Source: Kofleriaceae bacterium
GTDB taxonomy: Bacteria > Myxococcota_A > Polyangia > Haliangiales > Haliangiaceae
Reading direction: 5' to 3'
Length of the DNA: 64,000 nucleotides
NCBI GenBank assembly: GCA_022842285.1
Contig: JALHPV010000004.1
Location: 1 to 64,000, forward strand
In this document: one piece after another, positions 2,386 to 64,000 of the stretch
Layout: every line of letters starts with the position of its first letter
How positions within the stretch are numbered: position 1 is the first letter of the stretch
Made by a program: the position numbers and the translations under genes
The notes under the pieces: generated by a model
Database searches by the model: none
Told to the model about the DNA's origin: nothing
The model's input: the letters and a program-made list of their open reading frames with translations, nothing else

Positions 2386-2469
2386 CGGCGGCCGCGGACC
2401 ATAACACCTCAGCGATTGCCGACACGCCCCTCGCAAGTGCGGGGCCAGCGCAAGTCACTGATCTGAGAC

Positions 2470-3855: not shown

Positions 3856-3864
3856 GCGTCGGCG

Positions 3865-7583: not shown

Positions 7584-7585
7584 GA

Positions 7586-7617
7586 ACGAATCCTGAACAT
7601 CGAGGTTCCCGATTCGT
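7586..7617. terminator. Weak inverted repeat between convergent genes
   Basis: Seven-base arms ACGAATC (7586-7592) and GATTCGT (7611-7617) flank an 18-base loop, just after the stop codon of the receiver-ThDP gene and before the end of the convergent CPBP protease gene. There is no T run on either side, so at best this is a bidirectional or Rho-assisted terminator; chance occurrence is possible. Confidence 0.25.
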
Positions 7618-7660
7618 CAGAGCGCGCGCGTATTGATGTTTCGGATCGGTCCGCAGCCCC

Positions 7661-8332
7661 CTAGTCCGCCAGCTTGGGGGCCCGGATGCGAAACGGAATC
7701 GTGAACCCGGCCACCATCACGACGAGCCCGAGCACCATCTGCACCGTGGGATGAATCGACGACGTCATCACGGTGCTGAACACTCCGTGGAACACCACGG
7801 CGACGAGCACACCGCGGCTCGCGTTCGTGAACCAGGTCAACAGGAACGAAGCGGAGACGAGCGATACCGCCCATCCCACGATCTCCCCGCCGCCGAGCGC
7901 GGTCATCGACGGCGCGAATGCGAAGAGCGGGATGTGCCACGTAGCCCAGACGACCGCGATCATGAGGCTCGCGGCGGTCGCGCTATGGGTGCGCTGGAGC
8001 CGGGGCAAGAGAAAGCCACGCCAGCCAAGCTCTTCCCCGATGCCATAGGCGACGAAGCCCGCTGCGAAGGTAAGGGCGGAGCCGAGCGAGGCGAACACAG
8101 CGAAGGGAACGAGCGCGCCGATGATCACCCAGGTGCGGGGACCACGCAGGCGCGATCGAAACCGTGACCATGCGGCCGCATCCCGGGCCGAGAGCGCGAC
8201 TGCCGCGATCGCGGGTCCCAGCGCACCGATGAAGTACAGCACGGGTGCGCACCCGCCCCCGGCTCCCGCGAGGGCCAGCGGGAGCCAGCACAGCCACGAG
8301 ATTGCGAACGCGAAGGCAACGAAGGCGATCAC
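7661..8332 (-). CDS. CPBP-family intramembrane metalloprotease (CAAX protease/Abi-like)
   Basis: 223 residues with about six or seven hydrophobic segments. The family motifs are in order: EELGWRGFLLPRL (motif 1, the glutamate pair and Arg), a histidine in WATWHIPLF (motif 2), and VFHGVFS (motif 3). These Glu/His residues form the glutamate-dependent active site of Rce1/Abi-type membrane proteases, which act on prenylated proteins, bacteriocin precursors or unknown substrates. The start is a GTG at 8332; the frame continues open upstream to a stop at 8405-8407 with only non-standard starts, so a slightly longer N-terminus is possible. It is divergent from the ketosynthase-like gene by 85 bases. 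No bacteriocin peptide is adjacent, so an immunity role is not supported here. Confidence 0.85.
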   Translation of the reverse strand: MIAFVAFAFAISWLCWLPLALAGAGGGCAPVLYFIGALGPAIAAVALSARDAAAWSRFRSRLRGPRTWVIIGALVPFAVFASLGSALTFAAGFVAYGIGEELGWRGFLLPRLQRTHSATAASLMIAVVWATWHIPLFAFAPSMTALGGGEIVGWAVSLVSASFLLTWFTNASRGVLVAVVFHGVFSTVMTSSIHPTVQMVLGLVVMVAGFTIPFRIRAPKLAD

Positions 8333-8417
8333 GAGGTCGTGGTTCGGCCGAAACCGGGACCTGGAGAGTCGTAGCTCGTCGCCGAGCAGGGTGCGCAGAA
8401 CGCGCTAGCATGCGCGG

Positions 8418-9476
8418 GTGAGCGGCATTGGCGTACTCGGGCTCGGGCTGGCGCTGCCACCCGAGGTTCGCGACAATCGGTGGTGGCCGGACGACCTGGT
8501 CGCGACATGGAAGCCTCCCTTCTCGACGCAGCCACCGAGCTTCGAGCTCAGCGCGGCCGGGCGCGACATCGTCGCCGTGATGCGCAGCAGCGCGGCCGAT
8601 CCGTTCCAAGGCGTGCAGCGACGTCACGTGCTCGCACCTGACGCGTCGCTCCTCGAGCTCGAGGCGACCGCCGCGCACGAGGCGCTGGCCGACGCCGGGC
8701 TAACCCGCGAAGACATCGACGTGCTGTTGCTCTATCGCGCGCCCGTCGAGCATCAACTCACGAACATCGCGTGCGAGCTCCACGCGCGCCTCGGCCTGCC
8801 TCGACGTTGCTTCTCCCTGCAAACGGAAGGCGCCCAGCACGCCTTTCTGCTCCAGCTCGATCTCGCGCGTGCGCTGATCGCCAGCGGTCAGGCGCGCCGG
8901 GCATTGCTGGTGCAGTCGAGCGGAATCTCGCGCGTGCTCGACCCGAAGTCCTCGCTCTCCACCGCGTTCGGGGATGGCGCGACGGCGACGGTCGTGGGAG
9001 CCGTCAGCGCGGGGCGCGGGGTCCTGGGGACATCCCATCAGACAGATGGCGAACACCCGAACGCGCTTGTCGCGACCACGCAGGGTGGGCGCTGGTACGA
9101 CGCGGGCGCCAGCTACCTACAGATTCGCGATCCGGTCGGGATGCGGGACTCGCTCTTGAAGACCGTCGACGTGACTTGCGAAGGAATCTTCGCCGCGTGC
9201 GCCACCGCAGGGGTTCGCCCCGCCGAGATCGACGTGTTCGTCATGCATCAAGGGATGGCCTGGCTACGCAAGCTGGTGCAAACACACGCCGGTCTGGCCA
9301 ACGCCCAGAGCCTTGATACGATCGCCGACACTGGCCATCTATTCGGAGCGTTCCTGCCCTCGACGCTCGTACTGGCTCAACGAGCGGCCATGTTGGACGA
9401 TGAACGTCTCGTGCTTCTTGCAGGCGGTGGTACCGGGATGACGTTTGGCGCCGCCGTCATTCGCTGGGGACGGTGA
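8418..9476 (+). CDS. Ketosynthase-III-like protein (FabH superfamily) lacking the catalytic Cys
   Basis: 352 residues with the thiolase fold of 3-oxoacyl-ACP synthase III: GIGVLGLGLALPP at the N-terminus, an Asp-rich strand DIDVLLLYRAP, a nucleophile-elbow region near 130-150, FGDGATATVVG, and GGGTGMTFGAAV at the end. By hand alignment to FabH, the position of the nucleophilic Cys is occupied by Gln140 (TEGAQHAF). The catalytic His is kept (His277 in FVMHQGM), and the Asn of FabH is replaced by His in DTGHLFGAF. Replacement of Cys by Gln is known from KSQ domains of polyketide synthases, which decarboxylate malonyl groups instead of condensing, so decarboxylation or a non-enzymatic binding role is possible. 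Its TGA overlaps the ATG of the next sensor-kinase gene (TGATG), implying translational coupling. Confidence 0.75.
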   Translation: MSGIGVLGLGLALPPEVRDNRWWPDDLVATWKPPFSTQPPSFELSAAGRDIVAVMRSSAADPFQGVQRRHVLAPDASLLELEATAAHEALADAGLTREDIDVLLLYRAPVEHQLTNIACELHARLGLPRRCFSLQTEGAQHAFLLQLDLARALIASGQARRALLVQSSGISRVLDPKSSLSTAFGDGATATVVGAVSAGRGVLGTSHQTDGEHPNALVATTQGGRWYDAGASYLQIRDPVGMRDSLLKTVDVTCEGIFAACATAGVRPAEIDVFVMHQGMAWLRKLVQTHAGLANAQSLDTIADTGHLFGAFLPSTLVLAQRAAMLDDERLVLLAGGGTGMTFGAAVIRWGR

Positions 9477-12472: not shown

Positions 12473-12509
12473 TGCGTCGGCGTGTGCTCGAGAACTGCTT
12501 GAAGGAGAC

Positions 12510-13715
12510 ATGAGCGAAACCTCATCCAAGCCAACGCGCAGCGGTCCACTCGTCATCTACGTGGATGACGAACGTCCGAACCGGATCGTGTTCGAGCAGA
12601 GCTTCACGGAGTTCAACGTGAAGGCGGTTTCCGACGGCACGGCAGCGCTCGAGCTCCTCGAGGCGAACGACGCAGCCGTGCTCGTCACCGACATGCGCAT
12701 GCCGGGCATGTCAGGCGAGGAGCTCCTTCGCATCGCGAAGGAGAAGTACCCGCGGACGATCCGGATCGTGATCACCGCGTACTCCGACGTGTCGCCGATC
12801 CTGCGGGCTGTCAACGAGGGTCTCGTCGCGCGCTACATCGTGAAGCCCTGGACCCGCAACGAGGTCGCCCAGGTGCTCCGCTGGGCGTGCGAGGCGTGGA
12901 CGTTCGGCCGCGACTCCGCCGCCCTTCACCAGCGCCTGCTCGAGACCGAACGCCTCGCCACGCTGGGCAGCATGGCCGGCATGCTCGTCCATGATCTCAA
13001 GCAGCCCCTCATGTCGCTGCTCATCAACATCGACTACCTCCGCGAGCTCGCCGATGCGGCCCCCATGCTTCGCGAGGCCATCGCGCAGCACCAGAGCTTG
13101 CCGAGCGACAAGAAGCACCGCCTCGACGAGGTCGTCGGCGAGCTGGATTCGCTCACGACGGATCTCAAGACGTCGGCCGTCCACCTGTCCGACCTGGTCA
13201 ACAGCCTCCGCGACATGGGACGCCCGCGCGACGGGACCGCCCCGGCCCTGTCGGCGACGAATCCGCTTCCCATCGTCCGCCACGCCATGGCGGTCTGCCA
13301 GGAGCTCGCCGTCGCGGTGCGGGCCTCCATCGGCTACGACGGTCCGGGCGCCCTGCCCTCCGTGCGGATGTCGGCGACCGAGCTGATGCAGGTCCTCGTG
13401 AACGTGGTGGCGAACGGCGCCCAGGCGGTGGCGGCCCGCGGCTCGCCACACGGCAAGGTCTCGATCTCCGCGCGCCCCGATGGCGAGATGCTCGAGCTGA
13501 AAGTCCGCGACGACGGCGTGGGGATGCCTCGCGAGGTCCTCGACCGGGCCGGGACTCCCTTCTTCACCACCCGCACCGAGGGTACGGGCCTGGGCATCGC
13601 CCAGTGCCAGCGCCTCGTGGGCGGGGCCGGCGGCCGGTTCTCCATCGAGTCCGAGGTGGGTAAAGGCACCACCGTCACGATCACGATCCCGGTCGCAGAC
13701 TCGACCGCGGCATGA
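12510..13715 (+). CDS. Receiver-histidine kinase (REC-HisKA-HATPase)
   Basis: 401 residues. An N-terminal receiver (~12-130) has VDDE, acceptor Asp61 in VTDMRMPGMSG, and the Lys in VKPWT, a form common in RpfG/HupR-like regulators. It is followed by a kinase core with His161 in LVHDLKQPL, a long spacer, then NVVANGAQA, DDGVGMP and GTGLGIAQC. With the receiver ahead of the kinase core, phosphorylation of Asp61 by the upstream kinase would control kinase output, so this is a plausible next step for the preceding 998-residue protein. AAGGAG lies 6-7 bases ahead of the ATG, a strong ribosome-binding site that fixes the start. The small secreted protein gene starts 12 bases after its stop. Confidence 0.9.
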   Translation: MSETSSKPTRSGPLVIYVDDERPNRIVFEQSFTEFNVKAVSDGTAALELLEANDAAVLVTDMRMPGMSGEELLRIAKEKYPRTIRIVITAYSDVSPILRAVNEGLVARYIVKPWTRNEVAQVLRWACEAWTFGRDSAALHQRLLETERLATLGSMAGMLVHDLKQPLMSLLINIDYLRELADAAPMLREAIAQHQSLPSDKKHRLDEVVGELDSLTTDLKTSAVHLSDLVNSLRDMGRPRDGTAPALSATNPLPIVRHAMAVCQELAVAVRASIGYDGPGALPSVRMSATELMQVLVNVVANGAQAVAARGSPHGKVSISARPDGEMLELKVRDDGVGMPREVLDRAGTPFFTTRTEGTGLGIAQCQRLVGGAGGRFSIESEVGKGTTVTITIPVADSTAA

Positions 13716-13727
13716 CATCATCCTGAG

Positions 13728-14123
13728 ATGACGATCGCGGACCGCGCCCCCGCCGTTCTCACCTTCATCGCCGCCGCCAGCGTCACGGCCGCACTGGCGA
13801 GCGCCATGCTCCGCACGCCGTGCGCCGAGCGAACGCAGGTCGCGGAGCCCGAACAAGCCGTGCGCGTCGAGCTGCGTTCGCGCGGGTGCGTGTCGCACGC
13901 GCCGGTCGTCGATCAGTCATGCCCGAGCCCCGTGCGCGCGACGATGCACGTCGGCGCCGACGCCCGCTTGCACTGCGTGCGCGTCGAGGAGCACGGTGTG
14001 CCGTACCTGTTCGCGACCGCGCGCTACACGACGACCGAAGGCTGGGAGCGCACGGCGATCGTGTCGCTCGACGGGACGAGCCTCGTCTCGCCGCTCGAAG
14101 ATCGCCCGATCGTCGTTCGCTGA
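13728..14123 (+). CDS. Small exported or membrane-anchored hypothetical protein
   Basis: 131 residues. The N-terminus (APAVLTFIAAASVTAALASA) is a hydrophobic signal sequence or anchor helix. The rest has four to five cysteines (TPC, RGC, SCPSP, LHC) and short strands, consistent with an extracytoplasmic disulfide-bonded domain. No family recognised. It follows the receiver-kinase gene by 12 bases on the same strand and may be the last gene of that operon, although a role in the signalling system is only a guess. A long antisense frame overlaps it, but the signal sequence and operon position favour this strand. Confidence 0.5.
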   Translation: MTIADRAPAVLTFIAAASVTAALASAMLRTPCAERTQVAEPEQAVRVELRSRGCVSHAPVVDQSCPSPVRATMHVGADARLHCVRVEEHGVPYLFATARYTTTEGWERTAIVSLDGTSLVSPLEDRPIVVR

Positions 14124-14183
14124 CCGCAGCCCGAGTATCTCGGCGGCCACAGTGGCGCGGGTGTGGCCGCGCTCGCCCAGGCA

Positions 14184-14558
14184 TCACTCGCAGCGGTAGA
14201 AGCGCGCCTCGAAGCGCAGCTCCCGCCCCGCCTTCACGCACGCATACACCGGCGACGGGCAGCAGCCGCCGCGATAGACGCACTCGAGGTTCTTCTTCGC
14301 GCAGAGGGCGTTCACGTTGGGCTCGTCCGCCGGGCAGCCCTTGGGGTTCGGCGGCAGCGGACAGTCCGGCGCGACCACGGGCGCGGGCGCGGGCGCATCG
14401 ATCGGCACGCTCGGCGGCGGCTCGGGGGCCGCCACGCTGGGAGGCGGCGCCTCCTCGATGGGACGTGGTGCGAGGGGGGTGGGCGCGGGCGCCAGGGGCA
14501 CCGGTTCCGACCGTGGACCACACGCGACGAGCGCCAGGACGAAGAGGAGCCGGTGCAC
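14184..14558 (-). CDS. Predicted lipoprotein with Pro/Ala linker and Cys-rich domain
   Basis: 124 residues starting with GTG. The signal peptide MHRLLFVLALVAC ends in a lipobox (LVAC). Residues ~15-63 are a low-complexity Pro/Ala/Glu linker, followed by a compact domain with eight cysteines (DCPLPP, KGC, ALC, LEC, GGCCP, YAC, YRC) likely held by disulfides. The linker plus small Cys-rich domain suggests a surface-exposed lipoprotein. It lies 11 bases downstream of the alpha/beta hydrolase gene on the same strand, so the two are probably co-transcribed. No function can be assigned. Confidence 0.65.
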   Translation of the reverse strand: MHRLLFVLALVACGPRSEPVPLAPAPTPLAPRPIEEAPPPSVAAPEPPPSVPIDAPAPAPVVAPDCPLPPNPKGCPADEPNVNALCAKKNLECVYRGGCCPSPVYACVKAGRELRFEARFYRCE

Positions 14559-14569
14559 CGAGGGCGACG

Positions 14570-15343
14570 TTACCGCGGCGTGAGGACGCCGCGCACCTGC
14601 TCGACGACCAGGCGGGGCTGGGTCGTCTTGATGTCGTGCTGGGACTGATCCGCGACGACCAAGCGAGCCCGGGTATCAGCGGCCAGATCCTCGTGGCTCG
14701 CCCGCCACGCTGCGGACAGGTTCTCGTCGGGCCACCAGCCTCGCCCCGCGGTGATGATGGTCGCGGAGAGCGTCGGCGCCCAGCGCTTGCCCGCGAGTTG
14801 CTTCACGAGTCCGGGGAACAGGTCGACCATGCGAGCAGCGCCCTTGGAGGTCGCGCCCGATGGCACCGTCGCCATGACCTTGTCGACCCCCACCTCGGTC
14901 GCGAAGTCGGCGGTCATCGGATCGAGCAGGACGAGTCCGACCACCTGGGTGGGATTCCGCAGCGCATACGCGGTCGCGAGCAGGCCACCGTACGACTCGC
15001 CGACGAGGACGATCTGCTTGGTGCCCATACTGTCGAGCTTGTCGCGCAGCGCGTCGAGCTCCTCGTCGATGGTGAAGGCCCGGGTCGGCAAGGGCGTGTT
15101 CCCGAACCCCGCCCGGTCGTAGGCGATGACCTTGTTGCCTGTCGCCATGGCGAGCGCCCGCGGAAGGGTGTCCCAGCTCGCCGAGTCGGCGCCGCCACCG
15201 GCCTCGAGTACGATGGCTGGCTCGTTCCCGTCGATGACGGTCGAGAACAAGGTGATCTGATCGGTCGGGGCTTCTGGCTCCGACGGTCCACCCGCGGGCG
15301 GTGTACATGCCACCACCGCGGCGATGAGGGCGAATAGCCTCAC
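14570..15343 (-). CDS. Alpha/beta-hydrolase-fold lipoprotein
   Basis: About 257 residues from GTG 15343, chosen because it begins the signal peptide VRLFALIAAVVAC with its lipobox; the longer frame starting TTG at 15364 only adds seven hydrophilic residues. The hydrolase core shows the oxyanion region LEAGGGADSASW, AYDRAGFG, the nucleophile elbow GESYGG (Ser nucleophile), an acid in VLLDPMT or later, and a C-terminal His in DQSQHDIKTTQP, which suits the catalytic His. Overall it is close to esterases and haloperoxidase-like hydrolases of ~260 residues. It would act on a small ester or amide in the periplasm, attached to the membrane by its lipid. Substrate unknown. Confidence 0.8.
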   Translation of the reverse strand: MRLFALIAAVVACTPPAGGPSEPEAPTDQITLFSTVIDGNEPAIVLEAGGGADSASWDTLPRALAMATGNKVIAYDRAGFGNTPLPTRAFTIDEELDALRDKLDSMGTKQIVLVGESYGGLLATAYALRNPTQVVGLVLLDPMTADFATEVGVDKVMATVPSGATSKGAARMVDLFPGLVKQLAGKRWAPTLSATIITAGRGWWPDENLSAAWRASHEDLAADTRARLVVADQSQHDIKTTQPRLVVEQVRGVLTPR

Positions 15344-15512
15344 CTGTTCACCATGACCCCCCAACCGCGTCGGCGCAACTGGTGGGGGCTACGGGAGGGG
15401 TAACCTGAGGGGTGCGCCGGCTCACAGGTCGGTCACAGCGCGGTTTGGCGGCCACCTCCGCCGGGTCGCGGAGCTCCTGCTCATGGCGGCCACTCCGCTG
15501 GAACAAGCGCTG

Positions 15513-18500
15513 TCAGTGACGCTTCTGACGCGCTTCGGCGGACAGGAGCGCGGCGCGGATGACCCCGAGGAACTGCCCCTCGTTCCACGATCCCTTGGTG
15601 AGCACGGCATGCACCATTCGCTCGAGCTGCCGGCGCTCCGCGATATCGAGCAGCTTCGAGGTGAGGATGATGACCGGGAGCTCCGGGTCGATCTGGCCGG
15701 CGCGCAACTCGCGCAGCACGTCGAAGCCCGAGACCTCCGGCATCATGAGGTCGAGGATCATCGCGCCGAAGCGATTGCGCTCGATCGCGCCGAGCGCATC
15801 CCGGCCCCCGTAAGCGCGGGTGACGACGGCTCCCGCTTGCTCGAGCCGCTTCGAGACGTGCTCGACCGACCGCGGATCGTCATCGACGACGAGGATGTGA
15901 TGCGCCTCGCCGGGCCGCTTCAAGAGTCCGATGCTCTGCACGGCCCGGATGAGCTCCGGCCCCGAGACGGGCTTCTGCAACACCTCGGACGCTCCCAGGG
16001 CGAGTCCGCGTTGCAGGTCCGCGAGGATCGACACGATCACCACCGGCACATCGGCGACGGCGGAGGTCGCACGGAGGCGCTCGAGGAACTCCCAGCCGGT
16101 GGGACCTGACTCGAACAGGATGTCGAGCAGGATCACGTCGGGACGGTGGACCAGCACGCGATTCCACGCGTCGTCGGTCGTCTCGGCAATGTCCACGACG
16201 AACCCGGCGCTCTCGAGCCATCGGCGCGCCAGCGCGAGGGCCGCGCGATCATCATCGATGACCAGGACCGTTGTCGGCCGCGGGTGCAGCGACACCGGCC
16301 GCTCGGTCGGGGCAGCGAGGCGATCCGTCGACCGCGACCGGGGAATGCGGACCCAGAACCGGCTGCCCTTGCCGAGCTCGCTCTCCACACCGACGACCCC
16401 GCCGTGGAGCTCGGCGAGGTTCTTCACCATCACGAGCCCGAGGCCCGTACCTTCGAACCGGCGCGCGATGCCGGAGTCGATCTGCTCGAAGGGTCGAAAC
16501 AGCAAACCGAGGTGTTCGGGCGCGATCCCGATGCCGGTATCGATCACCGCGATCTCGATCTCGTGGTCCCGAGGCGCCACCGAGATGCGCACCGAGCCGC
16601 CGGGCGGCGTGAACTTCACCGCGTTCGCGAGCAGGTTGTAGACGATCTGCCGGAGCTTGCGGCCATCAGCAACGATGGGACCGAGGCCCGGCGTCACCAA
16701 GGAGGTGATGGAGACGTTCCCCTTGGCGGCACGCTCCTTCAGGATCGTGAGCGCGTTCGTGACCACCGGCTGCAGATCGACCAGCTCGACGTCGAGCTCC
16801 ATCTTCCCGGCCTCGATCTTCGACAGGTCGAGGATGTCGTTGATGAGCGCGAGCAGATGCCGCCCGCTATCGTACACGTCGGTGATGTACTCCTGCTGAT
16901 CGGGCTTGAGCTCGCCGACGAGCCCGTCCTTCAGCACCTCGGAGAAGCCGATGATCGCGTTCAGCGGCGTGCGCAGCTCGTGCGACATGCTCGCGAGAAA
17001 CTCCGACTTCATGCGACTCGCGGCGGCGAGCTCGAGGTTCTGCGCCTCGATCTTGCGCGAGCGCTCGTCGAGCTGGCGCGACAGGTCCTTGAGCTCCTGG
17101 AACTGTCGGATCGCGTGGAGCCCGATGGCCAGCTGCCCGCCGACCTGGTTCAGCCAGGTGCGCTCGCGAGCGAGGAGTGGCGCCGCAGACGCGCCCGCGA
17201 TCACGCCGACGAGCTGCTCGCGATGCACGAGCGGAACGGCGAACAGCGTCGCCACCGCCACCGTGCCTATCCCGGTGTCGAGTGAATACGGCGCGTCCGC
17301 CGCCCCATCGAGGAAGATCGACTCGAGGCGCTGGGCGGCTTCCCCCACGAGCCCCTCGCCCATGCGCACGAACCGTTTCTCGGCATTGCGCACGACGGAC
17401 AGGCTCGCCGCACACACGAGGCCGTTGCCCAGCGGATCATGCACGTACAGCGCGAGCGGCCGGTAGCCACCTTCGTCGGCGAGCACCCGCAACACCTCGG
17501 CGGCTGGATCCGTCCCGTCATGCTGCTCGTTCAGCGCGAGCATCACCCGGGCGCCGATGCGGTCGATGCGCGCCCCGATCTCGATCTCGCGGTTCTTCTC
17601 GGCGAGCGCCACCTGGGCGCGCTTCGCCTCGCGGATGTCGCGCGTGATCTCGAAGATGCCGACGAGCTCGCCGGCCCGACTGCGCAGCGCGGACACGCGG
17701 ACCGACACGTCGATGGCACGGCCGTCGCGATGGTTGCGGCAGGTCTCGTACGGGTCGACGACGCCGGTGGTCCGGAGCCGCGCGAGGGCCTGGGCATCCT
17801 CGTTGCGCTTGTCGGGCGGCAAGAGCCGCGCGAACGACTGCCCCACCATCTCGTCGGCGGAGAACCCGAACAGGACCGCCGCCCCATGATTCCAGCTCGT
17901 GATGAGGCCTTCGAGATTGCGGCTGACGATGGCGTCCTCGGAGTTGTCGACCATGGCCGTGAGCCGGTCCCGGGCCTCGGCGGCCGCCTTGCGCTCCGTG
18001 ATGTCCTCGGAGATGCCGAGTAGGTACGTCGGCTCTCCCGACGCGTCGCTGATCACGACCTTCTTGGTGTGCAGCACGCGCGGTCCGCGCTGGGTCTGGA
18101 TCGGCTCCTCGGGGATGTCGACGACGACCTTGCCGCGGAGGGTTTCCCGATCCTTCGCCTGGAAGAACTCGGCTTCGGCGCGCGGGAAGAAGGCGAAGTC
18201 GTCCTTGCCGAGCATGTCCGCGCGGGACACGCCGAGGAGCTCTTCGCCGGCACGATTGAACCGCACGAACGCGAGGTCGGCCGCGTCCTTCACGAACACC
18301 ATGTGCGGGATGTTCTCGAGCACGGCCTCGAGGAACTCGTTCGTGCGCCGCATCGTCTCGCGCTGCCGTTCGAGCTCGGCCTGCTGCTCGGCGGAGCGCT
18401 TCTTCGCCAGCACCTGCTCGGTGACGTCGGCGGCCGTGTGCACGATGCACGTGACGACGCCCGCGGCATCGAGCACCGGGTGATTCGCAGGCGCCCACCA

Positions 18501-52939: not shown

Positions 52940-55900
52940 GTGCTCAACGCCCGAGGCGTCGGCGCGGCGATCACCCTAACATCGGTCTATCCGAAGAACC
53001 CTAGTGATAGTGCTCAACGCCCGAAGGCATCGGCGCGGCGGTCACTGGACATCGCGTCGCTGCCGAAGCTGCCGCCGCGCGTGTGCTCAACGCCCGAAGG
53101 CATCGGCGCGGCGATCACGTGTCGCTACCCGGTCGCCGTCCAGTACATGGACGGGTGCTCAACGCCCGAAGGCATCGGCGCGGCGATCACGTGAAAAGGT
53201 CAGGACCCCGGGCCTCTCGGCGCTGCGTGCTCAACGCCCGAAGGCATCGGCGCGGCGATCACACACGGACGCGAGCGACACCGCGATGCCGCCGTCGTGG
53301 GCCACGTGCTCAACGCCCGAAGGCATCGGCGCGGCGAGCACGACCATGAGTGCCCGTCGTGCGGCGAGTCGGTGTTCGAGTGCTCAACGCCCGAAGGCAT
53401 CGGCGCGGCGATCACGCGCTGGCGCTGATGGACGCGGAGGAGTGGTCGGACAAGTGCTCAACGCCCGAAGGCATCGGCGCGGCGATCACACGAGCGTCGA
53501 GACGACGGGCGATCAGGGCTACCGGTGCTCAACGCCCGAAGGCATCGGCGCGGCGATCACGCGACGGGTCAAGATCGACCTCGAAGAGCATCGAGTGCTC
53601 AACGCCCGAAGGCATCGGCGCGGCGATCACTCGAGCTCCCTGAGCCACGGCATCCGCGCCGGTGTTGTGCTCAACGCCCGAAGGCATCGGCGCGGCGATC
53701 ACCCCTGGCCTTCGCGGCCGCATCCCGCAGCGCATCGGCGTGCTCAACGCCCGAAGGCATCGGCGCGGCGATCACATTTCGCGAGTTGACCGCAGCCCGC
53801 CTTTCCCCAGTGCTCAACGCCCGAAGGCATCGGCGCGGCGATCACGCTCTGTCCTCGCGTGTGCGCTCACGGTCACCGTTGGTGCTCAACGCCCGAAGGC
53901 ATCGGCGCGGCGATCACGCGGCGAGCCGATCAATCGCCCTCGTGAGCGTCGGGTGCTCAACGCCCGAAGGCATCGGCGCGGCGATCACCTTCTCGGCGGG
54001 GACGAAGGATGTCTTCTGTTCCTTGTGCTCAACGCCCGAAGGCATCGGCGCGGCGATCACCGCGTGGGCGACGAGACGATCGAGACCGCATGGTCGGGGT
54101 GCTCAACGCCCGAAGGCATCGGCGCGGCGATCACTGCGAGCGGGCGAAGCCCGAGCCGCCATCTGCAGGGTGCTCAACGCCCGAAGGCATCGGCGCGGCG
54201 ATCACGCTTGCGTTCTGCGGGCTCGGGTGACGTGGGCTGCGTGTGCTCAACGCCCGAAGGCATCGGCGCGGCGATCACTGGCCGGCAGCGACGCCGAGCC
54301 GGACGAGAACGGGTGCTCAACGCCCGAAGGCATCGGCGCGGCGATCACCCGAGGACGTGGAGCATGCGGCTCGTGAAGAGCGTGTGCTCAACGCCCGAAG
54401 GCATCGGCGCGGCGATCACCTCGACACGGGCGCGCTGGCGACGGCGAACCGCTAGTGCTCAACGCCCGAAGGCATCGGCGCGGCGATCACCCTAGCTCGA
54501 CCCACTCTCTCTTCTTGTCGTCGTCGTGCTCAACGCCCGAAGGCATCGGCGCGGCGATCACCCTGCGTGGTCAGCAGCGCGTCGACATGTGCTCTTCCCA
54601 GTGCTCAACGCCCGAAGGCATCGGCGCGGCGATCACCTGGGCAAATCTCTGCGCCGCCTGGCCCGCGGCGCGTGTGGTGCTCAACGCCCGAAGGCATCGG
54701 CGCGGCGATCACCCTCGTGTGTACACCGGCAATTCCGCCGTCACGAGTGCTCAACGCCCGAAGGCATCGGCGCGGCGATCACGTCGGGCGCGTGCTGCGG
54801 CCGTCGCCGGGCAAGACGTGCTCAACGCCCGAAGGCATCGGCGCGGCGATCACATCGCGCTCCTAGTCGCGTGCGGGGCGCCCCAGCAGTGCTCAACGCC
54901 CGAAGGCATCGGCGCGGCGATCACCAGCTTCGACAGGGATGAGAGGCGTAGCGCCCTCGTGCTCAACGCCCGAAGGCATCGGCGCGGCGATCACACCGTA
55001 TGCCAGGAGCTCGTCGCGAGCATTTCTCCTGTGCTCAACGCCCGAAGGCATCGGCGCGGCGATCACCATGACTCCCCCGCTGCCAGCCGGCGCAGTTCCA
55101 TCGTGCTCAACGCCCGAAGGCATCGGCGCGGCGATCACGCGGGCTACCCGGGGTGACAGATGCCAAGCGTCAGCGTGCTCAACGCCCGAAGGCATCGGCG
55201 CGGCGATCACCCATACACCGACGGGGCGTAGTTGGTGTCAACATCGTGCTCAACGCCCGAAGGCATCGGCGCGGCGATCACCTGCGCGAACGATGGCGCG
55301 CCCGTTGTAGATCGCCGGTGCTCAACGCCCGAAGGCATCGGCGCGGCGATCACCCATCCCCGCGCGGGACCCGGCGGTCTACCGTGAGTGCTCAACGCCC
55401 GAAGGCATCGGCGCGGCGATCACACACGCATCGACAGCGTCACTGTCGAGCAGTTCCGCTGGTGCTCAACGCCCGAAGGCATCGGCGCGGCGATCACTCC
55501 GGCAGGGATTCGACGCGCATTTGTTGACGCAGTGCTCAACGCCCGAAGGCATCGGCGCGGCGATCACAGCTCGAGGCCGCCGAGGAGTTGCCGAACTACC
55601 TCGTGCTCAACGCCCGAAGGCATCGGCGCGGCGATCACTCACCCGCTGCACATGCCGCGCGCTTTCGACTCCCACGTGCTCAACGCCCGAAGGCATCGGC
55701 GCGGCGATCACTGGCCACCACTCGAGTTCGTCACGTCTTCGATACGTGCTCAACGCCCGAAGGCATCGGCGCGGCGATCACGTCGCAAACATGCTGGTTC
55801 TCCCGCGTGTGAAGCGGTGCTCAACGCCCGAAGGCATCGGCGCGGCGATCACAGCCGGCGGCGGCTTGGCGAGCCACCTGGCCGTGCTGTGCTCAACGCC

Positions 55901-57439
55901 CGAAGGCATCGGCGCGGCGATCACTAGACTAACTGTTCGCATGGCCCACCACATGCACGTGCTCAACGCCCGAAGGCATCGGCGCGGCGATCACACGCGG
56001 ACCGTCACCAGCCCGCTGTAGTTCGCCTGGTGCTCAACGCCCGAAGGCATCGGCGCGGCGATCACGTAGTCCGTGTCGAGCAACCCGCCGCCGTCGTTGA
56101 CGTGCTCAACGCCCGAAGGCATCGGCGCGGCGATCACAAGCTGTCGGCCGCCGCGCTCGGTGCGGGCCCAGGGTGCTCAACGCCCGAAGGCATCGGCGCG
56201 GCGATCACGCTCGCGGCGCAGCTGCTCGGTGTCGAGGTTCGCCGTGCTCAACGCCCGAAGGCATCGGCGCGGCGATCACGTTTCCAGCTCGCCACCTCGT
56301 ACAGGTTCGGGTCACGGTGCTCAACGCCCGAAGGCATCGGCGCGGCGATCACGCACCGGACGCCCCGACACCTTGTACTTCAGGCGCAGCACGTGCTCAA
56401 CGCCCGAAGGCATCGGCGCGGCGATCACTGAAGAACCAACCGAAGTGGCGCATCTTCGACTTCTGGTGCTCAACGCCCGAAGGCATCGGCGCGGCGATCA
56501 CCAAGTCAGCGGGGCGTGGGAGACTCGCGACAGGAGTGCTCAACGCCCGAAGGCATCGGCGCGGCGATCACGCAAGCCTCGCGGCAAGTCGATGATGAAC
56601 ATCCTCTGGTGCTCAACGCCCGAAGGCATCGGCGCGGCGATCACCGGATGAAGATGAGGCACGCGTCGGCGTACTCCGCGTGCTCAACGCCCGAAGGCAT
56701 CGGCGCGGCGATCACTCGCCCAGGGCCGCGCGGGTTCCGCGCGCGCTCGGTGCTCAACGCCCGAAGGCATCGGCGCGGCGATCACTCGGAAATCCTGCCA
56801 ACGAAAATGCCAAAACACGGCGTGCTCAACGCCCGAAGGCATCGGCGCGGCGATCACGCACGTAAATCGACCCCTCGCGAAAACGCCGCGAATCTGTGCT
56901 CAACGCCCGAAGGCATCGGCGCGGCGATCACTGCGCTCCTCGGCAAGCTGGGGGGACGCGTCCGACAAGTGCTCAACGCCCGAAGGCATCGGCGCGGCGA
57001 TCACCCGGCGGAGACGTCGAGCGCGCGCCGGACGGTACCGTGCTCAACGCCCGAAGGCATCGGCGCGGCGATCACGAGCCCGAAGTGCCAGTGGACGAGG
57101 CCGTAGCGGACGTGCTCAACGCCCGAAGGCATCGGCGCGGCGATCACGAGATCAGCGCGGGCTTACAGACGCCGTCCTTGCAGCCGTGCTCAACGCCCGA
57201 AGGCATCGGCGCGGCGATCACCTAAGAAGCGCCTCGAAGAGCACATGGCAGCGAAGCGGTGCTCAACGCCCGAAGGCATCGGCGCGGCGATCACGACCGA
57301 AATCGAGGGCTTTCTGCTCGGGATTCGCGGTGTGCTCAACGCCCGAAGGCATCGGCGCGGCGATCACCTTCTCGGGCTGGCTCGACGGGGGACGCAGCGA
57401 CGGGTGCTCAACGCCCGAAGGCATCGGCGCGGCGATCAC
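52940..57439 (-). CRISPR. CRISPR array: 63 repeats of 36 bp, 62 spacers of 34-43 bp
   Basis: On the plus strand each repeat begins GTGCTCAACG and ends GCGGCGATCAC; 60 of the 63 are identical by eye. The exceptions are the first (52940-52974, 35 bp, degenerate), the second (53010-53045, ends GGTCAC) and the sixth (53306-53341, ends GAGCAC), all near the left end. Degenerate repeats at the left, plus a half-repeat before it, show that the leader is at the right, next to cas2. The array is therefore transcribed on the minus strand, like the cas genes. In that sense the repeat contains ATGCC-TTCG-GGCGT, a 5-bp stem with a UUCG loop, followed by TGAGCAC, which suits a Cas6/Cas5-type cut leaving a 7-8 base 5' handle. 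One spacer (R5 to R6) is 43 bases. Confidence 0.98.
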
Positions 57440-57584: not shown

Positions 57585-57989
57585 CTATTCGGTTGTCACA
57601 TCGGTGTGTTCATCAGGAACTCCGGGCGCTTCGGCGCATTCGTCCTGGTCTACCGCCTCAACATCCGCCGGTGCATGACTGGCACGAGGGGGTGACCCGA
57701 TGACACGGAAGGTCGCAGGCTGTTCCTGCCAACCTTCCACATGATTCCTCGATATCACATTCCTCGCGCAGCTCGGGCAGAGATCCACGATCAACAGCGC
57801 GTCGTCCGGGGCCATGACCTGGGCCAGCTCCCAGCGGAGCTGCTCGACCTCGAGGTTGTCGAGGCGACACCGGAACACCGAGTACTGGACGCGTCGACCG
57901 CGTCCACGGGCGATCTTGTAGACCTTACGCCAGCGGGCCGGCTCGCGGATGTCGTAGCAAACCAGCCGCCAGCGCTTATCAACCGCCAT
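57585..57989 (-). CDS. cas2: CRISPR-associated endonuclease Cas2, with C-terminal extension
   Basis: 134 residues from ATG 57989, which shares one base with the stop of cas4-cas1 (TGATG); longer starts inside cas1 are rejected. The Cas2 fold begins RWRLVCYDIREPARWRKVYKIARGRGRRVQYSVF (quoted only in part): the first strand carries Asp10-type acidic residue in CYDI, and VQYSVFRC is the second conserved strand. ALLIVDLCPSC follows. Cas2 is usually 85-100 residues; here the last ~40 (GSPPRASHAPADVEAVDQDEC...) form an acidic Pro/Glu/Asp-rich tail with no clear family. Cas2 dimerises with Cas1 for spacer integration. Its stop is 145 bases before the array. Confidence 0.93.
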   Translation of the reverse strand: MAVDKRWRLVCYDIREPARWRKVYKIARGRGRRVQYSVFRCRLDNLEVEQLRWELAQVMAPDDALLIVDLCPSCARNVISRNHVEGWQEQPATFRVIGSPPRASHAPADVEAVDQDECAEAPGVPDEHTDVTTE

Positions 57990-59413
57990 CAGCGCAACCG
58001 CAGCCGCGCGAAGAGCCCGCCCTCGTTCATCCACTCCTTCTCGAGCAACCGCACCTCGAGCTCGATGAGCCGAGCGTAGCTCAGCGAGTAGCCGAGTACG
58101 TTGTGGCGCCACACGTCTGCTTTGCGACGCTCGAGCACCTCGATGACCTTTCTTCTGCCGTCCTCGCCAAGCAGGACGCGCCCCGGCAATTCATCGAAGT
58201 CCGCTTGCGGATCGAACGTACGCCGGTTCAGCGCTGCCACGACGGCCATATCGACGACCGGCACGCGAAACAGCTCCATGAGGTCGAGCGCCAGCGTGTG
58301 CGCCGATGATCGTGGCCGGTGGTAGAAGCCGAACCCCGGGTGCAGGCCCACCGCGATCACGGCTTGCAGCACCTCCCGGTACAGCATGCCGTACGCGTAG
58401 CTCAGGATCGCGTTCACCCGGTCGCGCGGAGGCTGCCGGCTCCGTCCGAGGAACTGGAACGCTGGGTCAAGATCGTCCACGAGAAGGTATGGGAGCGCCG
58501 CGAAGTACGCGGCCGCTCCTGTGCCTTCGTGCCCGAGCAGCGTCGCAGAGGAGTCCGCGTGAGCAGCCCGCCGCAGCGCGTTGCGCATCTGCTCGGTTGC
58601 GCGCTCTAGCTCTTCAGCCCGCCCTCCGTCGCCTCGGGTTGCACGCAGCACGAAGCGCAACTGCGCCTCGAGCTTCGCGACCACGAGTCGGCGTGCGAGT
58701 CCAAGCGCGAACTCGGGTGCATCCAGGGCACGGAACTGCCGGATGTGACGCTGTGCGGTTGCAGCCGCAGGAGCGAGTGAGCCGATCAGCTCGCCGCCAA
58801 AGCTGGTCCAGTGCACGCCGATCTCCCGCGACGCGCAGAATCTCAACGCCTGTGTGGTGATCTGCGCGTACCCATGCAGCACCACCTGCCCTACTTCAAC
58901 GATGGGTAGCCGGATGTCGGGGTTCTCCCGGCCCTTGACGAGGAGCTGGTCGCCCGACCTCCCCACCTGTGCCCCGTTCTCCATGACGTGCAACGTCTGG
59001 CCGCGCGCATGCTCCGGCAGCAGCCGCAACGGTGGTAGCTCGTCTGTCTCCGGGTCGAACCGCGCTTCCTCTGGCAGGCATACTGGCGCGAGGGAACAAC
59101 GAGGGCAGAGCCGATCGTTTGACGTCACGGGCGGCCGCTCGATAGCCTCTCGAAGTTGGCGTCCGCGCTCGATCACCGTCCGCACCGCTGCTCGGAGCTC
59201 GTCATCCACCGGCACGCGAACGGTGATGGAGTCAGCGTGGTACCGGACTCGCCCTTCGGGCACCTGGCGACCGTGGGCCTCTTCGATCAACATGGCGTAC
59301 GCAGCGACCTGGATCCGGTCTGTCTGCCAGGCCTCGCGCGCTCCCGCGACCCCGGCCGAGCGGCCGCGCTTGTGCTCGTACGGGATCAGCGCACCGCTGC
59401 GGAGTCGAAGCAC
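57989..59413 (-). CDS. cas1: Cas1 integrase with the C-terminal part of Cas4 (downstream part of interrupted cas4-cas1 fusion)
   Basis: 474 residues if translation restarts at GTG 59413. The first ~115 residues are the rear part of Cas4: YEHKRG (the RecB EhK motif), QVAAY (QhxxY), and three Fe-S cysteines in LCPRCSLAPVC. The rest is Cas1: the Glu region LLGHEGTGAAAYF, His in GLHPGFGFYHR, and the acidic pair in LALDLMELFR, all of which fit the Cas1 metal-binding triad. The full fusion normally starts at GTG 59626, right after the cas5 stop, but an in-frame TGA at 59456-59458 splits it. Without that stop the protein would be ~545 residues. A G-rich stretch (CGGGGGG) lies 9 bases before GTG 59413, a possible restart site. 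Cas1 could then still function, with Cas4 defective. Confidence 0.85.
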   Translation of the reverse strand: MLRLRSGALIPYEHKRGRSAGVAGAREAWQTDRIQVAAYAMLIEEAHGRQVPEGRVRYHADSITVRVPVDDELRAAVRTVIERGRQLREAIERPPVTSNDRLCPRCSLAPVCLPEEARFDPETDELPPLRLLPEHARGQTLHVMENGAQVGRSGDQLLVKGRENPDIRLPIVEVGQVVLHGYAQITTQALRFCASREIGVHWTSFGGELIGSLAPAAATAQRHIRQFRALDAPEFALGLARRLVVAKLEAQLRFVLRATRGDGGRAEELERATEQMRNALRRAAHADSSATLLGHEGTGAAAYFAALPYLLVDDLDPAFQFLGRSRQPPRDRVNAILSYAYGMLYREVLQAVIAVGLHPGFGFYHRPRSSAHTLALDLMELFRVPVVDMAVVAALNRRTFDPQADFDELPGRVLLGEDGRRKVIEVLERRKADVWRHNVLGYSLSYARLIELEVRLLEKEWMNEGGLFARLRLR

Positions 59414-59455
59414 GTCAGCCGCCCCCCGAATACCGAGCGACTCGCTTTCGAACGT

Positions 59456-59626
59456 TCAGCGCTCCACGGACTCGCCGTCTTCCTGCGCCAGCTCGACGTG
59501 GAGACGTCGACCCGCAAAGACCGCGGCGTCAGCCAACCGGATCCGCTCGACTTCCTCGAGAAAGAACAACCGCTCGCAGTAAACCAGCGCATGAAGCGAC
59601 GCCACGCTCAGCAGCGGCGCGTCCAC
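59456..59626 (-). pseudogene. 5' part of cas4, ended by an in-frame TGA
   Basis: This frame starts at GTG 59626 directly after the cas5 TGA and reads 56 residues: [19 protein letters not shown] carries the first Fe-S cysteine (Cys17), then [10 protein letters not shown] the Cas4 His (His43). At codon 57 there is TGA (59456-59458) followed by TFESESLGIRG and Asp71, which continue the Cas4 sequence in the same frame. Both halves match the M. xanthus-type Cas4 region that I recall, so a base substitution, not a frameshift, best explains the break. It could also be a sequencing error. If real, the first cysteine and His needed for the Fe-S cluster and nuclease are separated from the rest. Confidence 0.8.
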
Positions 59627-60322
59627 TCAGGACACCGCCCGTTGCGGGCCCACCTTGACCCATGCGTCATGGCTCACGATCCCGAGCTGTCTCGGCGCGA
59701 ACAGAGGCGACTCGGTTCGGCTCGCGTCGCCGCGATCGATATTCGTCGTGAGCCTGGTCGTCTCTTGAACTGGATCGTGGCCCGTGACAGGCGCGTACCA
59801 GCGCGCCTGCACGTCATCGGGAGCGATCTCGATGGCATCGAACAGGAACTGATTGTCCCCGGCGAACGGAAGACCATAACGCGGCGTCTCGAGGCGCCCG
59901 GCGAGCCCTTCTGCCACACGCCGAATGACGCCCCCCTCCCCTCGCGCCGCGACCACGCATTCGACGTCGACGAGAACCTCTCGCCGGACGGGCGCGATCC
60001 AGTACTTGTTGCCGTGCGTACGCGCCTTGAACGCGTCCCCCGAGTTTCCGACCGGGTAGCTATGCAGCTGCTGGTAGAGCGTGGCCCGTTGCCCCGGCGA
60101 GATCAGGCCCACCGCGATCTCGAGGCTGGGCGCGTCGCTCCGGATCGGCGTCACCGGCTCCAACAACGAGCCCCGCGACTCGATCGCGGCAAGGTTGAGC
60201 ACGAGTCCCCACGCCGCCGAGTGCGGGATCACGGGGAACGTGCCGCGATAGACTCCTGCCTGCATCCAGCGCCAGGCGGCGAACGGCGCGGACAGGCGCA
60301 ACGTCACCGTTGCCAAGGTCAT
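59627..60322 (-). CDS. cas5: CRISPR-associated protein Cas5 (DevS/Cmx5 type)
   Basis: 231 residues. The N-terminus LRLSAPFAAWRWMQAGVYRGTFPVIPHSAAWGLV (in part) fits the RAMP-fold start of DevS/Cas5 proteins, and YRGTFPVIPHSA is typical of the M. xanthus type. ATG 60322 overlaps the cas7 stop by 4 bases (ATGA). Its TGA (59629-59627) is followed immediately by the GTG of cas4-cas1. Cas5 binds the 5' handle of the crRNA in the Cascade complex, and in some subtypes it also cleaves pre-crRNA. Since no cas6 is visible here, that possibility matters. Confidence 0.9.
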   Translation of the reverse strand: MTLATVTLRLSAPFAAWRWMQAGVYRGTFPVIPHSAAWGLVLNLAAIESRGSLLEPVTPIRSDAPSLEIAVGLISPGQRATLYQQLHSYPVGNSGDAFKARTHGNKYWIAPVRREVLVDVECVVAARGEGGVIRRVAEGLAGRLETPRYGLPFAGDNQFLFDAIEIAPDDVQARWYAPVTGHDPVQETTRLTTNIDRGDASRTESPLFAPRQLGIVSHDAWVKVGPQRAVS

Positions 60323-61197
60323 GCGTCGAGCCCGTCGTGCGCCAGCGTGCGAAGCGCCTCCTGAGGGTTGTCGAAGAACCGGACGCCCTCCTGGAGCAAA
60401 CGCTCTTTTTCCGCTCCAGCGAGCTCGCGCGCCAGCGCACCGGCGACCACGAACTCCTGGCCCGGCAGATCACCCTTCTTGATCCGAGCGAGCTCGGCGA
60501 ACCCTCCGTGGCGATCGAAGCCATAGCTGTCGAACCCACCGACCAGCGCCGGGGTGAGTCGCGCAACCAGGGAGCGCGGCGCCATCTCGAAGTAGCTCCG
60601 CGCGTGCCCTCCAGCAACGTTCGAGAGCTCGCCGATGGCGGAGAGAAGCGCCTTAGCCCACGGCTTCTTCGCCTTGCAGTCCTCGAAGCTGAGGGCGAAG
60701 GGATACTGGTAGGCAGTGTGCGAGACCTCGCGATGCAGAAGCGCGGAGGACGTCGAGTTCTTCCAGGGGCTATCGCCCGCGTTGAGCGGAGACTGGTGGA
60801 AGGTCGCGTCGAACCGGTATGGGTGAAGCGCGACCGCCATGTTCATGCGAAGCACGCTGTCGCGCTTCGCCGGACGCTTGAAGTTCCTCATCTCCTTGTT
60901 GTCGGCGACGAGATAGCCGAACAGGAAGTCATCGGCATACTTGTCTGCATCGGGATACTCCTTGAACTCGACGGCTAGCTGGTCTTCATTGAGCAGCCTC
61001 CGACGATTCATCGGCTGTTCGCGTAACGCGAGGATCTCTCGGAGAGCGTTGCGCATCGCTTCGGGACTCACGACGGCGTACTCGTGGTCGCCCTTCGTGA
61101 TCTTCTGGATCACGGTGCGATTCTCCTCACTCTCACCGCGATAGTTGCTGCTCGGGGCTGCGTTCGTCAGGATGCTACAGAACAGGTTCTTCAACAT
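60319..61197 (-). CDS. cas7: CRISPR-associated protein Cas7 (DevR/Cst2 type)
   Basis: 292 residues. The hallmark DevR start is LTNAAPSSNYRGESEENRT, followed by EYAVVSPEAMRNALREIL, the pattern of this RAMP-fold backbone subunit that polymerises along the crRNA spacer. Later parts include DDFLFGYLVAD and ARSYFEMAPRSLVARLTP. AAGGAG lies 7-8 bases before ATG 61197, a strong ribosome-binding site, which suits the high copy number of Cas7 in Cascade. It follows cas8 by 16 bases and overlaps cas5 by 4. In M. xanthus the equivalent devR is also needed for sporulation; whether that applies here cannot be seen. Confidence 0.92.
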   Translation of the reverse strand: MLKNLFCSILTNAAPSSNYRGESEENRTVIQKITKGDHEYAVVSPEAMRNALREILALREQPMNRRRLLNEDQLAVEFKEYPDADKYADDFLFGYLVADNKEMRNFKRPAKRDSVLRMNMAVALHPYRFDATFHQSPLNAGDSPWKNSTSSALLHREVSHTAYQYPFALSFEDCKAKKPWAKALLSAIGELSNVAGGHARSYFEMAPRSLVARLTPALVGGFDSYGFDRHGGFAELARIKKGDLPGQEFVVAGALARELAGAEKERLLQEGVRFFDNPQEALRTLAHDGLDA

Positions 61198-61213: not shown

Positions 61214-62899
61214 TCACGAGTTGGCAGAGAGCGCGAGGAGCGTCAGGCTGCGAACCCGCTCCACTTCTTCCTGGTTAGTGAGCGCGCGAGCGAGCGCGAG
61301 GTATCCGGTCTCGCCCAGGTGCTGGGGAACCGAGCACAACGTCGACGTGAAGTACGCGACGAAGTCGGCGCCGGTTCGCGAGCGGACCGCGAGAAATGCC
61401 TCGCGCGCGACCTTCTCCTTCTTGCTTTCGAAGTCGGCCTTCCCTGCCGCGCTGCCGGAGGCATCCGCCCACTTCAGGCTGTACTTCGAGGCCAGGCGGC
61501 CAAGCACGTAGGAGCGAGTCGCCTGATAGACAAGCTGCTCGAGGGTCTTGGGTTCATCTGTGCGTGACTCGGTCATCTCAACCTCCGTGAATGCGATGCG
61601 GCAGTCGTGTTGGAACTTGGAATCGAGGATGGTGTTCTCCTTGGGCGTCTGCGCGCAGAGCCGACCGAACTCGCGCCACCATTCACGCTCCTCGAGTAGA
61701 TTCGCGATCCTCTGGCGCCGAAAAACCGAACTCCAGTACGCCGCCCGGACGCGGCCATACGCGTCGGCGCGATCGTGGCGAGGATCAACGCGGCTCAGGC
61801 TACGGACGCGTACGTTGTTCCCGTCCTTCTCGATGTGCACAACGTCGATCGCGCTGACGGAGTACCGTGTCGCCGCCGCCCCTTGCTTCGCGCGAATGAC
61901 GGCGAGCATGCGGCTTAGCACGTCAAGCCCGGCCTCCCCGGCCAGATCGACGAGCGAGTCCGCGGGCCGGTAGCCTGAGATCTTTGGCGACCGAGCGCGA
62001 ACGACCTGTGGCCAGTCATCGACGAACTGCCCGAGGTCGGCAACCTCTGGCACGGCTAGCGCGAGGCCCTTGAAGTCGCGGCTACCGTCGCGGTCGACGA
62101 GTACCGGCACGTAGATCGCGACGACGAATGGCCAGAAATGCAACACGAACTGCGACGACACGCGGTCCCGAAACGAAGCGTTCTCGGCGGTTCTTGCCTG
62201 TGCCCCGAGGAAATAGGTGCTCGGGAGCTCGACCCCTGCCTGCGGGCCAGTCGCGAGGGCCTCCCAGGCCTCTGCGGCGTCCGTGGAGGCCCGACCATGG
62301 GCGCGAGACTCGTATGGCTCCCGCGTCGCGGGGACGCCTCGCAGATGCGACCAGACCAGGTCTCGCCATAGCTTGAGCCACGACTGCGGCTCGGTGGGCG
62401 GCGCTGGGTCCCAGTCGGCGATCAACGCGCCCCGAGGAACGGTCGCATCGTAGACGTAGAACGTCTTCTCCTTCGCCTTCCCCTTGGCATCCGGCACCAC
62501 CCTCTCCACCGTTCGCTTTGGCGGGATAACTTCCTTGGCCTTGTTCTTGAGGGGCGCCGCGCGCTCCTGCTCCTCGTTCGAAGCGCCGTAGATGTCATCG
62601 AAGAGGCTCTGCATCCCCTCGCGGTCGACCCGCAGCGTGAGCCCTGCCTGGTCGATTACCTCGAGCTCACAGACCCCTTTTGCGTCGGGTCGACGACGGA
62701 GGAAACCTACGCACAACGCGAGACCAGCGAGGCCCGCTTTGTGTTGCGAGGATGGCAGCTCGTTCAGGTTCCAGCGGATCGAGATGGGTCCTTCCGGCAC
62801 CGCGGGTTTCGGCGCGCGGGCTGCACGAGGCTTCGATGCACTCGATGCGCGCTTCTTCTTGGGACCGGCCTCGGTCTGTTCGGACGTATCGCTCATCAA
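61214..62899 (-). CDS. cas8: Cas8-like large subunit of Cascade (Cmx8/DevT type)
   Basis: 561 residues. After an Ala/Lys-rich N-terminal tail (PKKKRASSASKPRAAR) the protein begins ISIRWNLNELPSSQHKAGLAGLALCV, which matches the Cmx8 family start as I recall it. The rest is mostly helical with FVLHFWPFVVAIYVPVLVD and a C-terminal helical region (RRQRIANLLEEREWW). It is the likely PAM-recognising large subunit. Its ATG overlaps the cas3 stop by 4 bases. The positively charged extension before the recognisable domain is not usual and may bind nucleic acid. Family assignment is firmer by gene position (between cas3 and cas7) than by motif. Confidence 0.82.
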   Translation of the reverse strand: MMSDTSEQTEAGPKKKRASSASKPRAARAPKPAVPEGPISIRWNLNELPSSQHKAGLAGLALCVGFLRRRPDAKGVCELEVIDQAGLTLRVDREGMQSLFDDIYGASNEEQERAAPLKNKAKEVIPPKRTVERVVPDAKGKAKEKTFYVYDATVPRGALIADWDPAPPTEPQSWLKLWRDLVWSHLRGVPATREPYESRAHGRASTDAAEAWEALATGPQAGVELPSTYFLGAQARTAENASFRDRVSSQFVLHFWPFVVAIYVPVLVDRDGSRDFKGLALAVPEVADLGQFVDDWPQVVRARSPKISGYRPADSLVDLAGEAGLDVLSRMLAVIRAKQGAAATRYSVSAIDVVHIEKDGNNVRVRSLSRVDPRHDRADAYGRVRAAYWSSVFRRQRIANLLEEREWWREFGRLCAQTPKENTILDSKFQHDCRIAFTEVEMTESRTDEPKTLEQLVYQATRSYVLGRLASKYSLKWADASGSAAGKADFESKKEKVAREAFLAVRSRTGADFVAYFTSTLCSVPQHLGETGYLALARALTNQEEVERVRSLTLLALSANS

Positions 62900-64000
62900 C
62901 CCTCCATGGTCGTCGTTGGACCGTCGTCGACGTCAAACCCGAGCGACGCCGTGTACCGCGCCGAGTCCGCGATCCGGATCCAGCTCGGCAACCCGGCGCG
63001 CGCCGGCTCCCTCGAGAACTTCCGCGGCACGGTGAGCCTGAGACCGTCCGTCGCGGCGCGAGCCGCATCGAGGCGGAGGAACTCGTCGACATCGCTGTCG
63101 AGGATCACCGGAGAGCCCGCGTCATCAGACTCACGCAGTGCCCCAGGCGTGGCGTAGTAGCCGGCGTCAGTGAACCGCGTGGCGCCCTCGGCATCCCGGC
63201 TAACCGGCGAGAATGCAGCAAGGCCATCCGCGAGGGCGACCTGACTCACGTCGCGCGTGTCGAACGACGCCAGGAACTGCTCGGCCGCGTCGAGCTCGGA
63301 CCGGTCGTACGGAAGCGTCGACTCGGGAGCGTACGTCAGTATGGCCGCGCGAAACTCAGCGCCCCGCCGCAGGTGGCGATTGGCGCGACCGAACCGCTGC
63401 ACGAGCGACGAGATCGGCGCATGCTCGGAGATGAGGACGTCGGCATCGAGGTCGAGGCTCATCTCGCAGACCTGGGTCGTCACCGCGATCGCCGCCGGCG
63501 GGCTCCCGGAGCGTGGGGACTGAAACGCGGCCACGGCAGCTCGGTGCTGACGCTGGCGATCGTCCAGCTTGAACCGGGAGTGATAGGCAATCGTGTCGGG
63601 CGCAAGGCTACGAAGCCGACGCACAAGTCGCTGGCAGCGCCGGACCGTGTTCACGACCCAGAGCACGCGCTGTCCCTGCTTCCACGCCACCACCGCACGC
63701 TCGAACGCGGCGTCCTCGCCTGCGATGGCCTCGAATCGATACCGAGGATGCGACTCCGCCATCTCGAGATCCGGCAACTCGGCGCGCTCGGACTCGTTCG
63801 GATAGACACGCAGCAATTTCGCGAGCTCGTTCTTGCGTCCGGCCGGCAACGTGGCCGTCATGCACAGCGCTGGCACATCGAATCGCTGGAGGAACGTGAT
63901 CAGCGCGTTCCACATGCGTGGGTCGTAGCTGTGGATCTCGTCGAACACGATCGCCGAGTCAGCCAGGGCGGGCAGCAGGCACATGCCGCCATAGCCGTGC
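62896..64000 (-). CDS. cas3: CRISPR-associated helicase Cas3, partial
   Basis: The frame is open at the right window edge, so the N-terminal part (and any HD nuclease domain) is missing; ~367 residues are seen. The visible part has the helicase motif II as DEIHSYD (DExH), motif III MTATLPAG, the second RecA domain with HSRFKLDDRQRQHRAAV, and motif VI in SLVQRFGRANR. These are the ATP-dependent helicase parts of Cas3, which unwinds and degrades target DNA recruited by Cascade. The C-terminal accessory region follows. Its stop overlaps the cas8 ATG by 4 bases. cas6 and the start of cas3 would lie to the right. Confidence 0.93.
   Translation of the reverse strand, partial: HGYGGMCLLPALADSAIVFDEIHSYDPRMWNALITFLQRFDVPALCMTATLPAGRKNELAKLLRVYPNESERAELPDLEMAESHPRYRFEAIAGEDAAFERAVVAWKQGQRVLWVVNTVRRCQRLVRRLRSLAPDTIAYHSRFKLDDRQRQHRAAVAAFQSPRSGSPPAAIAVTTQVCEMSLDLDADVLISEHAPISSLVQRFGRANRHLRRGAEFRAAILTYAPESTLPYDRSELDAAEQFLASFDTRDVSQVALADGLAAFSPVSRDAEGATRFTDAGYYATPGALRESDDAGSPVILDSDVDEFLRLDAARAATDGLRLTVPRKFSREPARAGLPSWIRIADSARYTASLGFDVDDGPTTTMEG

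Follow-up and report, generated by a model that had tools for sequence, protein, structure and literature searches.

The type I-MYXAN (MxI-B) CRISPR systems of myxobacteria are laid out in the order cas6-cas3-cas8-cas7-cas5-cas4/1-cas2 (PMC11237760), and the part played by a Cas4/1 protein has been described for type I-G, where cutting of the PAM end and choice of orientation fall to the Cas4 domain and integration to Cas1 (PMC10504553). The window analyzed here, 64,000 nucleotides from one contig (contig C4) of a Kofleriaceae draft genome, contains a locus that resembles the MxI-B systems in gene content and order, in the presence of Cmx8, in a Cas4-Cas1 fusion of the TIGR03983 type, and in an array of 36-nt repeats, but differs from them by an in-frame TGA at codon 57 of cas4/1. 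The type I-G Cas4/1 proteins of Geobacter and Methanosarcina (PDB 7mi4) have the same domain order as the fusion of the window, but are only about 32-34% identical to it and are associated with another effector. By its other features the locus is of type I-MYXAN, with the fusion copy broken in the assembly, and it is best read as carrying a lesion of an ordinary kind in an ordinary, complete CRISPR system, that is, a very recent mutation or a base-call error rather than special decoding.

The features of the locus, all on the minus strand, are collected in Table 1. The order cas6-cas3-cmx8-cas7-cas5-cas4/1-cas2-array is identical in L144 and in other I-MYXAN loci, the array has its leader towards cas2, and no lesion was found elsewhere in the operon, every other gene being open, including cas3 and cas6 beyond the window. 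The array consists of 62 full repeats, of which 60 are identical, and one degenerate 35-nt copy at the trailer end (52940). Cas2 has a C-terminal extension of about 36 residues (57585-57700) towards the leader; an explanation of this longer C-terminus by a lost stop was rejected, several relatives carrying comparable extensions that differ in length and sequence.

Table 1. Features of the type I-MYXAN locus in the window
Feature	Position	Strand	Remarks
CRISPR array	52940..57439	(-)	63 near-identical repeats of 36 nt; leader side 57440
cas2	57585..57989	(-)	Start overlaps cas1 stop (TGATG)
cas4/cas1 fusion gene	57989..59626	(-)	545 codons and terminal stop, with one TGA inside
474-aa ORF from GTG	57989..59413	(-)	Truncated Cas4 without Cys17, His43 and Asp71; whole Cas1
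G-rich Shine-Dalgarno-like stretch	59414..59431	(-)	Just upstream of GTG 59413
In-frame TGA, codon 57	59456..59458	(-)	In the Cas4 nuclease, after the His43 part and before the Asp71 part
Cas4 N-terminal fragment	59459..59626	(-)	56 codons, carrying Cys17 and His43
cas5 (Cmx5/DevS)	59627..60322	(-)	
cas7 (DevR/Cst2)	60319..61197	(-)	
cas8 (Cmx8)	61214..62899	(-)	TIGR04413, 563 bits vs cut-off 150
cas3, C-terminal part	62896..64000	(-)	HD and helicase parts, then cas6, continue past the window on the same contig

The fusion gene starts with GTG at 59626-59624, abutting the cas5 stop, and after the TGA (59458-59456) the same frame continues uninterrupted and with no gap until the cas1 stop (57991-57989), itself overlapping the ATG of cas2. 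Because of the TGA, Cas4-Cas1 is not a single open frame in the assembly and becomes one only on read-through. The read-through product, with X at the stop, contains Cys17, His43, Asp71, YEHKRG and CPRCSLAPVC of Cas4, matches the Cas4 profile TIGR00372 above its cut-off (73.8 bits), and scores 472 bits against cas1_MYXAN TIGR03983 (cut-off 358). An intact fusion from the same family (L013), the closest full-length relative, is 70% identical to it in an alignment of 548 residues that runs through the position of the stop, so that the continuity of the frame is more than chance. These results bear out the initial annotation, which had described 56 codons from GTG 59626, the TGA and a seamless continuation of the frame, the cysteine, histidine, aspartate and EHK motifs of Cas4, an undamaged Cas1 part, and an otherwise complete array of 63 repeats (more exactly, 62 full copies and the degenerate one).

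Alignment column 57, the residue of other Cas4-Cas1 proteins to which the same annotation had drawn attention, is an ordinary sense codon in 20/20 aligned relatives (I-MYXAN and I-G fusions), where Leu, Gln, Arg, Phe, Tyr, Met or Val is encoded; neither Cys nor a stop occurs there among these 20, and further I-MYXAN fusions agree. The position is variable and non-catalytic, lying outside the Fe-S cluster, the active site, and the named cysteine positions. In a locus of the same genus (genome G001) the whole operon is present with cas4 open, and its cas1 runs off the contig end. Among the 41 Cas4 columns that are invariant in all other aligned sequences, none is broken in the window, and intact relatives break 0-5 of them. 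Past the stop, dN/dS against L013 is about 0.12 (0.198/1.676), a rough figure as dS is near saturation, and Tajima-type relative-rate counts are balanced between the two sequences. Relaxed selection of the kind seen in pseudogenes is thus not found downstream of the stop, and from this lack of decay it follows that the stop is very young, or is bypassed, or is absent from the organism.

To an isolated, very recent nonsense mutation at codon 57, in a type I-MYXAN locus that is otherwise intact, we would assign roughly an even chance on the evidence of the sequence. In the mechanism predicted for such a mutation, full-length Cas4-Cas1 would no longer be produced, and ribosomes terminating at the TGA could re-initiate 42 nt further on at GTG 59413, yielding Cas1 with a dead Cas4 remnant, while translation of cas2 would persist through its coupling to the cas1 stop. 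Judged from the nucleotide sequence, a restart at GTG 59413 is plausible, since among 13 candidate restarts this codon has the best anti-Shine-Dalgarno pairing (-10.0 kcal/mol), a value reached by only some 1-5% of random 18-mers. Pairing of comparable strength is found at some homologous sites of intact relatives, which shows that the signal is a side effect of coding for the conserved LRGxVD. The remnant by itself is not expected to have nuclease activity, because the restart comes after the catalytic Asp71. The initial annotation had proposed, as one of three options, that Cas4 is being lost while Cas1 is kept through this restart; the restart stands as plausible, whereas a long-running loss is not supported, the sequence downstream being undecayed.

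The nonsense mutation would leave the 62 stored spacers usable, because Cas6, Cas3, Cas8, Cas7 and Cas5 are intact, but the uptake of new spacers would be less efficient and would lack both PAM selection and orientation, leaving many new spacers unable to work. The expected effect on PAM choice is drawn by analogy with cas4 deletions made in vivo elsewhere, which lowered uptake and gave spacers without the correct PAM (PMC6519985). The only other Cas4-family gene in the genome, on contig C10, encodes an intact Cas4/1 of type I-G, and its identity of about 32% to the present fusion would make it an unlikely stand-in for a Cas4 lost in this way; a short cas4 match on contig C92 was rejected as chance, being antisense to an unrelated gene. 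The second CRISPR system of the genome (L097:1-700 and 1077-9545) is of type I-G, with an intact Cas4/1 and an array broken by the contig end, and a repeat fragment resembling the repeat of the window's array lies at another contig end (G000:C362:1-27), perhaps from a second array. Searches for protospacers gave none that were convincing, the whole array yielding only weak matches of 29-34 nt to phage records (best E 0.1) and the four leader-proximal spacers no match to viral contigs. That the stop is both real and kept, making this a type I strain in which PAM-blind spacer uptake is the work of a Cas1 with a dead Cas4 remnant attached, a natural Cas4 knock-out that has just begun, seems unlikely to us.

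The possibility that the gene is intact in the organism, the TGA having entered the draft assembly as a consensus error or as a minority allele, keeps considerable weight while falling short of an even chance; a wrong base call was also among the options of the initial annotation. It is favored by the complete lack of decay in Cas4, by the state of the assembly (a 7.9-Mb draft in 550 contigs with 4% contamination), and by a second clean, single in-frame stop on the same contig, a TAG located 16.3 kb away at C4:75744-75746 (L096:11744-11746). This TAG interrupts the gene of a conserved TPR protein of about 4,024 residues, which is open at this position in the genomes of the genus, family, and order that hold the matching stretch; a miscall or a mixture of strains is a likelier source of a broken core gene than a mutation that survived, and the error reading gains weight accordingly. 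On the other hand, the TAG is the only such stop in 0.5 Mb of the genome scanned by coding statistics for stops flanked on each side by coding sequence, so that such stops are not widespread in the assembly. The scan misses the cas4 TGA itself because of the atypical codon use of the upstream cas sequence. Fusions in other genomes also show in-frame stops, but these genomes are likewise drafts. A single further case in 0.5 Mb carries too little weight to decide between mutation and error.

Bypass of the stop, the remaining option in the initial annotation, would give some full-length Cas4-Cas1 if the TGA were misread in the ordinary way or decoded by a suppressor tRNA. The downstream Cas4 sequence does bear the mark of purifying selection, and Cas1-Cas2 adaptation may need little protein; however, the selection signal is older than a young stop and is no proof of present translation, no structure beyond chance is found 3' of the TGA, and the stop is common to no relative, so that we consider this improbable. 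Programmed bypass in particular is unsupported. Decoding as selenocysteine is a meaningful question here, since the genome can decode UGA in this way, with SelB (301 bits, above the cut-off), tRNA-Sec (74.8 bits, in two places), and a probable true selenocysteine codon in an AhpC/TSA peroxiredoxin. The peroxiredoxin TGA (L098:18256, minus strand, contig C1), in the context RGHW-TGA-LWC with a UxxC motif, served as a positive control. Against this machinery stands the unsuitable site: every homologue lacks Cys at column 57, UxxC or another redox motif is absent around the codon, and the position belongs to neither the Fe-S cluster nor the active site. Moreover, the fold 3' of the cas4 TGA is no better than shuffled sequences (z +0.6 to -0.9), a weak test in that the peroxiredoxin control itself gives z -1.4 (47 nt) and -0.5 (57 nt). 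Selenocysteine at codon 57 was consequently rejected, its probability being close to negligible. The idea that the evolved, functional form is a stable pair of proteins, a Cas4 N-fragment and Cas4C-Cas1, could draw on L089, where a stop in Cas4 is directly followed by ATG, and on L095, which has Cas4C-Cas1 only. Against it, the restart signal is a coding by-product in the present gene, no split is seen in relatives that have type I effectors, and the remnant made from the restart lacks the catalytic Asp71; we regard it as very improbable.

In favor of the recent nonsense mutation, comparable in-frame stops do occur at a low rate: of the roughly 110 full-length Cas4/1 fusions in the class and phylum surveys, those of the window, L089, and L092 have one, the latter two genomes also being drafts. 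L089, which comes from a different genome of the class, has its TAG in the Cas4 part, after ...REVAESG and directly before an ATG, the fusion being otherwise open; in L092, from another genome of the phylum, the TAG is in the Cas1 part (...ITLLN*GELGP). With stops in the Cas1 as well as the Cas4 part, Cas4 is not clearly singled out. TGA/TAG matches in G150, G148, G044, and G082 were rejected as lesions, being the normal ends of separate cas4 genes. The N-terminal half of Cas4 is kept in all 17 I-MYXAN loci with nearby type I effector genes (L003, L044, and L131-L145), indicating that long-term loss would be unusual here and that the lesion must be young.

A locus from another class of the phylum (L095, 16782-18957) offers a contrast. 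Its Cas1 is likewise a cas1_MYXAN (469 bits) accompanied by cas6_cmx6 and cas2, but these genes adjoin a type III-B Cmr operon (genes 9314-16646), and the fused Cas4 has wholly lost about residues 1-138, the nuclease half, keeping the cysteine cluster and the whole of Cas1, whereas the window keeps the entire Cas4 sequence apart from the TGA. In L095, cas1 begins close downstream of cas6, and a gene for a SAVED-domain protein adjoins. The type III-B Cmr effector is not known to require a PAM in targeting. The pattern of 17 type I loci with Cas4 kept and one III-B locus with it lost fits the need for a PAM as the force retaining Cas4, although one case proves nothing. Myxobacterial III-B and MxI-B systems have been reported with common repeat types (PMC11237760), which makes a partner swap in L095 reasonable.

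If the stop is an error, the locus is a warning against inferring gene loss from single drafts. If it is real, the organism would carry a natural Cas4-minus allele together with 62 ordered spacers, and a comparison of the newest with the older spacers of this one array could show how Cas4 influences PAM choice.
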